Shown here one piece after another: positions 34,467 through 59,010 of a stretch of DNA of 64,000 bases. Origin of the DNA: Bartonella sp. HY038 (GTDB lineage Bacteria > Pseudomonadota > Alphaproteobacteria > Rhizobiales > Rhizobiaceae); assembly GCF_014117425.1 (NCBI RefSeq), contig NZ_CP059725.1, forward strand, positions 1,612,001 to 1,676,000. Direction: 5' to 3'. Each line of letters begins with the position of its first letter. Position 1 is the first letter of the stretch. Below the pieces are notes generated by a model, which saw only the letters and a program-made list of their open reading frames with translations, made no database searches and had not been told where the DNA came from. The position numbers and the translations under genes are program-made.

Positions 34467-35258
34467 ATGGCGCTTGATTTTAGTTTTTTGTGCAAGGATA
34501 CAGCCGATCCGATATCTTCTGCATCAACCATACCAGGATGCTTTGGTAATCCTAATGACTTCACACAGACCTATATGGATCTGCTTGTAACTGGCTTTAT
34601 TAATACGGCCATTCTATCTGTTAGCGCCCTCTTGGTTGCTATCGCATTGGGCTTTGTTATAGGCACGATGCGAACGCTTCCCAATAATCCCGTATTGAAG
34701 TTTTTAGCTACTTGCTGGGTAGAAATATTTAGAAATATTCCTATCCTTGTCATGGTTTTTCTTTGTTATTTTGTTTTGCCTGATATTATCTTGCCATTAA
34801 AAGATTTTGCCAAGTCCCACGATAATTTCGGCCTATTTTTGGTAGTGATCGCCCTTGGATTATTTACCTCGGCACGTATTGCCGAGCAGGTAAGGGCTGG
34901 TATTATGTCCATTTCCACCGGTCAACGCTATGCAGCTCAAGCTTTGGGCTTTACGACATTTCAAACATATCGCTACATATTACTGCCACGCACTCTACGT
35001 ACCATTATGCCACCTCTTACGTCTGAATCTATGGGTATCGTCAAAAATTCGGCGGCGGCAATCGGTGTCTCAATCGCAGAGTTAATGGCTTTTTTAAATA
35101 ATACCGTAGAACAAACCAATCGTAGCTATGAAGTATTTATTATCGTAACAATCCTTTACGTGTTGTTAGCCCTCATTATCTTTTTTGTTATGACCTTAAT
35201 ACAACGCTCACTCCGTATTCCCGACAATAACAGTTCTGCCAAAGCGGAGGAGGCTTAA
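34467..35258 (+). CDS. gltJ: ABC transporter permease GltJ-like
   Basis: A 263-residue inner-membrane permease of the His/Glu/Gln/Arg/opine type. About five helices; the EAA loop that contacts the ATPase is in A-A-Q-A-L-G-F-T-T-F-Q-T-Y-R-Y-I-L-L-P. The N-terminus has a 35-residue polar segment before the first helix. ATG at 34467 has GGAG 9 bases upstream. The next gene starts 4 bp after its stop. Confidence 0.85.
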   Translation: MALDFSFLCKDTADPISSASTIPGCFGNPNDFTQTYMDLLVTGFINTAILSVSALLVAIALGFVIGTMRTLPNNPVLKFLATCWVEIFRNIPILVMVFLCYFVLPDIILPLKDFAKSHDNFGLFLVVIALGLFTSARIAEQVRAGIMSISTGQRYAAQALGFTTFQTYRYILLPRTLRTIMPPLTSESMGIVKNSAAAIGVSIAELMAFLNNTVEQTNRSYEVFIIVTILYVLLALIIFFVMTLIQRSLRIPDNNSSAKAEEA

Positions 35259-35262
35259 TATT

Positions 35263-35967
35263 ATGACTTTCCTCGATTTTCTTTATGATCACGGTATCAA
35301 TTTACGCTTTAATTTTTCTTTCGTAAGTTGGGACTTTTTTAGCAATTATCTTTTAAGAGGCTTACAATTTAGTGTTACAATGACAATTGTTGCAACACTA
35401 TTTGGCGTAATTTTTGGCACATTACTTGCCCTAGCCCGCCTATCTCGTTTTGCACCATTATCTATGTTAGCAACCTTTTATATCACTGTAATGCGATCAA
35501 TTCCGCTGGTTTTGGTTATTTTATGGTTTTTCTTAATTATTCCGGCCATTATAGGTACGAGTATCGATGTCTACTGGTCGGCACTCATAACCTTTTCCGC
35601 GTTTGAAGCTGCATATTTTGCTGAAATTATGAGAGCTGGTATTCAATCCATTTCGCGGGGACAGTTTCAGGCTGGCGAAGCACTTGGCATGACCTATTGG
35701 CAAAGAATGAAAATTGTTATCCTACCTCAAGCATTCCGTAACATGCTGCCAGTATTGTTAACGCAAGTTATCATTCTTTTCCAAGACACTTCTCTTGTTT
35801 TTGCCATAGGCGGCTATGATTTATTAAAAGGCTTTACCATTGCTGGCCAAATCTATAATCGGCAAACAGAAACTTATATTTTAGCCGCCCTCACCTATTT
35901 CGTTATTTGCTTCACACTTTCACTTTGTGTCAAGCAACTACAAAGAAGAATTGCAATTATTCGCTAA
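35263..35967 (+). CDS. gltK: ABC transporter permease GltK-like
   Basis: A 234-residue second permease subunit with the EAA motif in G-E-A-L-G-M-T-Y-W-Q-R-M-K-I-V-I-L-P-Q-A and the pore segment F-Q-D-T-S-L-V. It forms a heterodimer with the upstream permease. Packed between gltJ and gltL with almost no spacing. Confidence 0.85.
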   Translation: MTFLDFLYDHGINLRFNFSFVSWDFFSNYLLRGLQFSVTMTIVATLFGVIFGTLLALARLSRFAPLSMLATFYITVMRSIPLVLVILWFFLIIPAIIGTSIDVYWSALITFSAFEAAYFAEIMRAGIQSISRGQFQAGEALGMTYWQRMKIVILPQAFRNMLPVLLTQVIILFQDTSLVFAIGGYDLLKGFTIAGQIYNRQTETYILAALTYFVICFTLSLCVKQLQRRIAIIR

Positions 35968-57793: not shown

Positions 57794-58535
57794 ATTTAAA
57801 TCTTTTATTTTGCGAATTAAAAGCTAAGAAAGTAACGATATCTTTACGGCAGATCTATCACCTTTTTGCGGCAAATTGCGAGTCCTTGGAAATAGGAAGC
57901 ACTACGTAAAACATCAATGCTAACAAAAATAAACCATATATGAGCTATAGATAAAATTGCATTTATTTAATATTTAACATATTTTTGTGTTGTGGGAATC
58001 CAGCTTCTTCCAAAACAGGCTATTTACTTTTGGTATAGCAATATTATGAATTTTGCACCAAATAACTTTTGTGCAATTGAAAAGCATTTAATTATGCTCT
58101 TAGTGAAAATACGTCGATAAACACGACCTACATCCTTACCGCTCTTATCGTTAAGACCGCATTGAAATATTATAGAGGTGGATAGTAAAAGCGAAAAATC
58201 CTTATTTATCTATATTATCGCAAGATATTTGGTATAATTTTTTGCTCTTCAAATTTATATAAGACGAAGCTTAATCTATATGCGCGTCACTCTGTATATA
58301 CCCAATAGATAACTATTTTGAATTGCGGCAAAATCACGATCAAAAAGTGATTTTGGTATTTGCATATTGCCTCCTCCTATAACAAAATCTAGAAATTTTT
58401 GGGTTAATTATATTTAGATAAAAACTAAACCCAACTTGTATATTAAACAAACATGTAGCATCACCATGCAGAGGTAAAAGCCAAAAATTTAAATCTGCCG
58501 CTATTATGCTTTCTACCAAAATAAATTTTGCGCAT
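57794..58535. other. Gene-free AT-rich region
   Basis: About 740 bp between the RNA methyltransferase gene and the small RNA. No supported gene or strong structure. A minus-strand frame at 58340-58675 runs through the small RNA and is judged false. Confidence 0.4.
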
Positions 58536-58690
58536 AAAAAAACACCTGCTGCGGGAGGAGGTGCAGCAGGTGTTTGAATTGAAAACCGACTGGGAGGAGG
58601 AGGAGATGTCGGTCTTCCAAAATTTTCAGGGCTTGGGAGGAGGAGATAAGCCCTGAAAAAACTCTCAAACATCAATTTAATGTTTGTATT
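58536..58690 (-). ncRNA. Cuckoo/CcsR-type small RNA with three anti-Shine-Dalgarno hairpins
   Basis: Read on the minus strand, three perfect stems each present a CCTCCTCCC loop: TTTTCAGGGCTT / AAGCCCTGAAAA (58623-58659), ACCGAC / GTCGGT (58585-58613) and CACCTGCTGC / GCAGCAGGTG (58543-58572). The last is followed by seven U and is the terminator. A fourth stem CAAACAT / ATGTTTG (58666-58686) lies upstream. CCUCCUCCC loops define the cuckoo RNA class (CcsR in Rhodobacter, probably alpha-r14 in rhizobia), thought to bind mRNA ribosome sites or to titrate proteins. It starts about 55 bp after the DUF1127 gene, the same linkage as CcaF1-CcsR. The 5' end is not fixed; it may be processed from the DUF1127 mRNA. 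Confidence 0.88.
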
Positions 58691-58740
58691 GCATTTAACA
58701 AGCTCTCAACTCATAAGCGAGCGCTTTAATTAAACTTTAA

Positions 58741-58884
58741 TTAACGTGTTGCGCGACGAGCAATTGATGGAATCTCAGCGCGATTGATGCCAAGATCATT
58801 AAGCTCACGATTAGAAAGACGGCTTAACTCGTTAACCGTTGTGCGGTAACTACGCCAGTTATTGAAAGAGCGTACCAAATTCAT
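58741..58884 (-). CDS. DUF1127 small RNA-binding-type protein (47 residues)
   Basis: A 47-residue basic protein: M-N-L-V-R-S-F-N-N-W at the start, then L-S-R-L-S-N-R-E-L-N-D-L-G-I and the ending R-A-E-I-P-S-I-A-R-R-A, the standard DUF1127 motif. AGGTGA lies 6 bases upstream of ATG. Short arginine-rich DUF1127 proteins in alphaproteobacteria bind RNA (CcaF1 in Rhodobacter helps mature the CcsR RNAs). The cuckoo-type RNA directly downstream on the same strand makes the same relation likely here. Confidence 0.88.
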   Translation of the reverse strand: MNLVRSFNNWRSYRTTVNELSRLSNRELNDLGINRAEIPSIARRATR

Positions 58885-59010
58885 TTTTATCACCTAGATA
58901 TTGTTTATTATGCTTTATTGCTTTGTTAGGTAATATATAGGCCTATCGTTCAATTTTGAGTAGAGCTAAATTTGCATGGCTGCCCCACCGATTTGGCAAA
59001 GATAACGCAG

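Follow-up and report, generated by a model that had tools for sequence, protein, structure and literature searches.

This locus raises the question of what kind of regulatory RNA is encoded behind its short DUF1127 gene, what activates the pair, and which mRNAs the RNA would act upon. The window, i.e. the whole 64-kb stretch of DNA that was analysed, carries on its minus strand a DUF1127 gene (PF06568; positions 58741-58884, 47 codons plus stop, 61 bits against a cut-off of 23.3). It is followed on the same strand, after a gap of 76 nt, by a small RNA with three hairpins, in the gene order of a CIN1 locus. Both had been described in an earlier reading of the sequence alone (the sequence-only reading), and both were recovered here. 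The interpretation that we consider probable is a CIN1-type unit of an LsrB/VtlR-activated DUF1127 gene and an αr14 sRNA that would repress transport and uptake mRNAs by means of anti-Shine-Dalgarno loops.

Family identity and genomic copies of the RNA

Cuckoo-type sRNAs form a family whose loops imitate the mRNA-binding sequence of the ribosome. When the window was searched with Rfam covariance models (cmscan), a search that the sequence-only reading had proposed for the alpha-r14/cuckoo families, the RNA at 58537-58664 (minus strand) matched ar14 (RF02344) over the full length of the model (positions 1-123 of 123) at 95 bits against a cut-off of 58.8. It is a well-formed member of this known family, of the αr14/NfeR1 type, and a new example of it. 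The CcsR1 model (RF02791) reached 24.5 bits on the same RNA, below its cut-off of 65.3. The locus had earlier been likened to CcaF1-CcsR and related rhizobial RNAs; a DUF1127-linked cuckoo anti-Shine-Dalgarno RNA it is, but the family is αr14 instead of CcsR. Matches in the window to GlmZ, Pseudomon-1 and three further Rfam families were all under their cut-offs and were set aside, generic hairpins being the probable cause.

The sequence CCTCCTCCC was found three times in the window, at 58635-58643, 58592-58600 and 58553-58561 of the minus strand, all inside the RNA (0.13 copies expected in 64 kb; three copies were reached in 0 of 100 shuffles). For the 211 nt located 3' of the DUF1127 stop the predicted fold was -71.6 kcal/mol, against a shuffle mean of -40.3 (z = -7.87). 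Scanning the minus strand with generic sigma-70 promoter and terminator patterns gave no match; the probable terminator formed by hairpin 3 was missed because the scan permits loops of 3-8 nt only.

The window genome (3.60 Mb, four contigs) contains four ar14 matches of 81-95 bits and three DUF1127 genes, and three of the four ar14 copies sit behind DUF1127. The further DUF1127-ar14 units are two in tandem at C1:3322707-3323554, and the copy without DUF1127, at C1:2769435-2769554, retains the three hairpins. The same set, with four ar14 copies of which three are DUF1127-linked, was found in the sister species (G001), the sole other species of the genus searched.

Hairpins, loops and their conservation

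In the window copy CCUCCUCCC is unpaired in the loop of each of the three predicted hairpins. By predicted fold and genus alignment, hairpin 1 (58627-58655) has CUCCUCCUCCC in its loop and hairpin 2 (58581-58617) has CUCCUCCUCCUCCC; hairpin 3 (stem-loop 58542-58573) has CCUCCUCCC and together with its U7 tail (58536-58573) is a probable terminator. All are on the minus strand, and the three exposed motifs and seven-U tail of the sequence-only reading were thus all found.

The six DUF1127-linked copies from the two species of the genus (G000, the window genome, and G001) were aligned and folded with RNAalifold, which predicted hairpins 1-3 and a hairpin adjacent to the DUF1127 stop, with 3 both-sided changes among 43 pairs. 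The latter hairpin (58700-58726, minus strand), which lies between the stop and the sRNA, was predicted in all six copies; one of its pairs shows a both-sided change in two sequences and another is broken in two. It may be a processing element or an element of the mRNA 3' end. The fourth, 5' hairpin of the sequence-only reading exists as sequence at 58666-58686 (minus strand), but was seen in just two copies, that of the window and its ortholog in G001; in the ortholog, by eye, one A-U pair has become G-C and the end pair is lost, and it was absent from the consensus of the six DUF1127-linked copies.

A broader alignment of 20 sequences joined the eight copies of the genus to 12 sequences from elsewhere in the family, picked by the analyst. 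In hairpin 3, 10 of the 12 stem pairs have changed on both sides and still pair. The stems of hairpins 1 and 2 align poorly here, and neither of these two hairpins was predicted. The loop letters of the ar14 sequences were almost invariant and the stems variable. Published descriptions of αr14 likewise give three hairpins in which CCUCCUCCC is unpaired and the stems are hypervariable (PMC7143759, PMC10746234; compare PMC3927594).

Persistence of the loops in close relatives had been singled out earlier. In the G001 ortholog loops 2 and 3 retain CCUCCUCCC, but the full motif is gone from loop 1, which reads UUUCUUCCUCCC, with 9 of the 10 pairs of hairpin 1 retained despite the loop change. The repeat number of the middle loop is not constant, copies as well as species differing by one CTC unit; for this reason the four CUCC repeats were rejected as a functional feature. 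The earlier idea that long loops might pair with several ribosome sites at once found no support either, since the loops of NfeR1 are reported to be redundant (PMC10746234) and loop length varies among copies. The stems of hairpins 2 and 3 are near-identical in all six copies linked to DUF1127, across both species (L049, 1515-2155; L047, 1622-2357; L045, 3624-3751; window, 58537-58664), and CTC repeat numbers look exchanged between the tandem copies of G000 and G001. Gene conversion or recent duplication among the six copies is possible.

Candidate targets

The pattern GGAGGAGG-N3-9-ATG was found at 14 places in the window genome and its reversed-pattern control at 2. Three of the 14 are antisense to ar14, frames of 29 codons and 2 codons were also dropped, and nine start genes of 234-501 codons. 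According to Pfam these nine encode sigma-54 (rpoN), an ABC ATPase, a lactate permease, two MFS transporters, a DAO-type oxidoreductase, an ABC permease, an aminotransferase and an amino-acid permease. With transport classes assigned from Pfam by the analyst, transporters make up six of the nine GGAGGAGG starts vs 2 of 17 AAGGAGAA starts (one-sided Fisher P = 0.008). The AAGGAGAA control comprised 22 starts, five of which were dropped for frames below 60 codons; its two transport starts are a substrate-binding protein (L217) and MrpF (L221). Three of the GGAGGAGG starts (lactate permease, one MFS transporter and the oxidoreductase) are uncertain because the open frame extends further upstream. 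No more than two kinds of site are found again in G001, namely that of the lactate permease and that of a putative amino-acid permease counterpart.

Within the window the candidate target, by complementarity, is the ABC permease gene (PF00528; 35246-35967 with its ribosome site, plus strand), which has GGAGGAGG at 35246-35253 and its ATG at 35263 and encodes 234 aa. It (35263-35967) is the one normal-length gene of the window with GGAGGAGG ahead of its start. An ORF of 29 codons at 58276-58365 (minus strand), about 170 nt past the ar14 terminator, also has the ribosome site GGAGGAGG. It was rejected as a neighbouring target and is probably incidental, because it was not seen in the compared stretch of the G001 locus; near the equivalent locus G001 has no GGAGGAGG sites besides the ar14 antisense ones.

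The rpoN start (C1:232417-232580, minus strand, locus L170) lies behind GGGAGGAGG, the full 9-base complement to the ar14 loops. As a conserved target rpoN was rejected: with 19 of 23 loci resolved and the start with the strongest duplex taken, GGAGGAGG was present in the window genome alone, G001 keeps GGGAGG only, and GGAGG is absent from the other 17 of the 19 starts scored.

The argument on targets rests on nine genes, and GGAGGAGG is equally a plain strong ribosome site. The seed of ar14 is the ribosome's own consensus. The loops could for that reason serve as a general brake on translation, competing with the 16S anti-Shine-Dalgarno for many mRNAs and having no defined target set, to which the four ar14 copies per genome and the loop redundancy published for NfeR1 (PMC10746234) would also be suited. 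We give this explanation a small chance, as starts with the eight-base GGAGGAGG are few (14 sites, 9 gene starts) and enriched in transport genes. Transport genes feature among the reported targets of NfeR1 (PMC10746234), and the enrichment seen here fits that published picture, although it is suggestive only.

Promoter and regulator

A VtlR/LsrB-like activator box, TGGGGCAGCCATGCA, is located at 58973-58987 (minus strand) upstream of the DUF1127 gene. It is identical to the published Brucella VtlR box (CAATGCAGCCATGCA; PMC12595884) in 11 of 15 letters, and by hand count it agrees with the A. tumefaciens form at 6 of the 7 positions which that form specifies; it is a putative binding site of the regulator, for which LsrB and VtlR are given in the literature as two names. 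The -10-like sequence CCTATAT at 58935-58941 (minus strand) follows 31 nt after the box and would place the transcription start near 58928.

Box-like sites precede all four ar14 copies in each of the two species, scoring 10-12 of 15 letters against the Brucella box at the eight copies. The -10-like sequence comes 31 nt after the box where a DUF1127 gene is linked (six copies) and 33 nt after it where none is (two copies). Searching for CAGCYATGCA-N2-4-TT gave 8 distinct sites in G000 and 7 in G001 (0 and 0 for the reversed-pattern control); four in each genome precede ar14 loci, and the other seven sites fall inside open frames of 100 codons or more.

Conservation in the bacterial family was scored at DUF1127 genes. 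A core derived from the loci, GCWGCYATGCA, occurred with at most one mismatch before 19 of 28 DUF1127 genes vs 0 of 28 controls, one site at L059 being counted twice. This core is partly circular, having been written after inspection of the loci, and the test was therefore repeated with the published box alone, which scored at least 11 of 15 before 18 of 22 family DUF1127 genes vs 2 of 44 control stretches. The 22 loci, a convenience set from 19 genomes, are what remained of the 28 genes once the second L059 gene and five DUF1127 genes from beyond the family had been dropped; at those five the best sites had 2 mismatches to the derived core. Four of the 22 family loci scored below 11, most clearly G025 and G013 (4 mismatches to the derived core). 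One of the 18 scoring loci, that of G014, has a score of 11 at the unusual position -287.

Two other LsrB- and NtrC-related patterns were looked for in the eight genus promoters. The S. meliloti LsrB motif as printed (TGCA-N6-GCAT) was found in none of them, and the NtrC pattern TGC-N11-GCA was found at three, overlapping the box, with none near the window copy.

A candidate regulator is the LsrB/VtlR-like protein encoded at C1:2759980-2760372 of the window genome, which over 131 residues is 74% identical to the LysR protein found next to ar15 in a relative; the next best candidate showed 35% identity. About 9 kb separate this gene from the ar14 copy that lacks DUF1127 (C1:2759980-2769554). 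The single copy of ar15 (AbcR-type) is elsewhere, at C1:2528727-2528832. A LysR frame adjoins ar15 in 4 of 9 ar15 loci inspected, and does not in the window genus.

Given how often the published box scores at least 11 of 15 before DUF1127 genes of the family and how rarely in control stretches, the promoter input is probably LsrB/VtlR rather than a promoter of the Rhodobacter RpoH type. A Rhodobacter-type CcaF1-CcsR unit would be an RpoH-driven stress operon in which an RNA-binding DUF1127 protein matures the sRNA with RNase E. The gene order and the loop motif are the same, and CcaF1 is reported to promote the maturation of its own downstream CcsR RNAs (PMC10253847), yet we regard this explanation as improbable, in view of the sub-threshold CcsR1 score noted above and of the promoter. 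The RpoH-type CTTGA-N14-18-CY.AT, a simple pattern built on known RpoH promoters, was found at 0 of the 8 genus copies between -120 and +60 nt of the box start, where a VtlR/LsrB-like site stands instead. The reported roles of DUF1127 proteins also conflict: CcaF1 is described as binding RNA, the short Agrobacterium proteins as working by protein contact with PhoR, and for YjiS no RNA binding was found (PMC12501420). For the stress responsiveness proposed in the sequence-only reading, the sequence gives no support in the form of a Rhodobacter-type RpoH promoter; a stress role in a wider sense may remain, because NfeR1 is reported to be induced by nitrogen stress (PMC10746234).

Linkage of ar14 and DUF1127 among genomes

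Matches to ar14 above the cut-off were found in 37 of the 61 genomes searched, 36 of them belonging to the family of the window genome, in which 36 of 37 genomes searched were positive. Linkage was counted with 125 DUF1127 matches, among the matches listed, so that all linkage counts are lower bounds. On the same strand a DUF1127 gene lies within 300 nt upstream of at least 45 of the 102 ar14 matches and within 800 nt of at least 5 more, and at least one such pair is present in at least 30 of the 37 ar14-bearing genomes. A DUF1127 gene lies within 300 nt downstream of at least 10 of the 102 matches, and on the opposite strand within 1 kb of at least 1; among the DUF1127 matches listed, 52 of the 102 have none within 800 nt upstream. 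Matches to the αr14 region and DUF1127 were also obtained in plasmid searches, mostly from Rhizobium. Synteny with gltD was considered and rejected, as no CCTCCTCC pair spaced 26-59 nt was found in any of 80 gltD loci examined.

That the hairpins serve mainly as a 3' UTR or terminator protecting the DUF1127 mRNA, their loops having little activity in trans, is very improbable: although three of four copies stand behind DUF1127 and the processing site is putative, the fourth keeps three hairpins and has box-like and -10-like sites of its own, loop letters are near-invariant while stems change, and NfeR1 is reported to act in trans (PMC10746234).

Proposed mechanism

For the CIN1-type unit preferred here, co-transcription, activation by LsrB/VtlR, processing and repression are modelled on published relatives. 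The LysR regulator LsrB/VtlR, bound at 58973-58987, would activate one promoter near 58928, from which the 47-aa DUF1127 protein and an αr14/NfeR1-type trans-acting sRNA of about 128 nt would be transcribed together. The transcript, of some 390 nt, would terminate at hairpin 3 and its U7 (58536), and RNase E, the probable enzyme given its role in Rhodobacter, would free the sRNA by cutting between the stop of DUF1127 and hairpin 1. The three CCUCCUCCC loops would then be redundant seeds for pairing with extended purine-rich Shine-Dalgarno sequences (GGGAGGAGG or portions of it). This pairing would prevent translation, above all that of genes for transport and for nitrogen/carbon uptake.

Relation to known systems

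The nearest relative is αr14/NfeR1 (RF02344), whose three hairpins with CCUCCUCCC loops, length of about 123 nt and several copies per genome are shared by the window RNA. NfeR1 (SmelC397), the S. meliloti founder of αr14, is reported to have a promoter that is bound and activated by LsrB and repressed by NtrC, and three redundant loop motifs with which it silences ntrBC and two tested ABC-transporter mRNAs in trans (PMC10746234). Judged from sequence only, the window RNA likewise has an LsrB-like promoter site and complementary transport-gene starts. NfeR1 is described as a transcript of 123 nt that has an NtrC site as well. The window copy differs in being linked to DUF1127, in having a box nearer the Brucella form than TGCA-N6-GCAT, and in having no TGC-N11-GCA nearby.

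The CIN1 locus (Reinkensmeier and Giegerich 2015, as cited in PMC10253847) is described as a short DUF1127 gene with a CcsR-like cuckoo RNA. The window locus has the same make-up, a short DUF1127 gene and then anti-Shine-Dalgarno hairpins, and no difference of kind from CIN1 was found. It resembles CcaF1-CcsR1-4 of Rhodobacter sphaeroides (RF02791) in gene order and loop motif, but that system is reported to have four CcsR RNAs and an RpoHI/RpoHII promoter (PMC10253847), vs one three-hairpin RNA and a VtlR/LsrB-like site here. The CcsR homolog RS0680a is described with two stem-loops (PMC3927594).

In A. tumefaciens VtlR is reported to activate directly atu1667, a short gene termed a putative sRNA and orthologous to Brucella BAB1_0914 and BAB2_0512 (PMC7486931), and in Brucella it is reported to activate short DUF1127 genes (PMC12595884). 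Atu1667 and BAB1_0914/BAB2_0512, as VtlR-activated short DUF1127 genes or an ortholog of these, resemble the window gene in the control proposed for it. A cuckoo RNA co-transcribed with these genes is not mentioned in the available portions of those accounts.

Significance

All parts of the locus are of known kinds. What is added is a clean CIN1 locus and a VtlR/LsrB-like promoter site common to the ar14 copies of both species. In a partial survey, limited to the accessible text of papers on VtlR/LsrB with cuckoo RNAs, αr14 or DUF1127, a shared input for CIN1 loci was not stated; the survey being partial, the link between LsrB/VtlR and CIN1 is not claimed as unpublished. Across the family the box-like site suggests one LysR input for cuckoo RNAs and short DUF1127 genes, and if the input is shared, mutants of these genes may confound the effects of protein and RNA. 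More tentatively, LsrB/VtlR might act through one promoter to produce both a short DUF1127 regulator, of the type reported to act on PhoR in Agrobacterium (PMC12501420), and an anti-Shine-Dalgarno RNA directed against transport genes, here also rpoN. Were this possibility true, the published phenotypes of vtlR and DUF1127 mutants would be due in part to cuckoo RNAs on the same transcripts.
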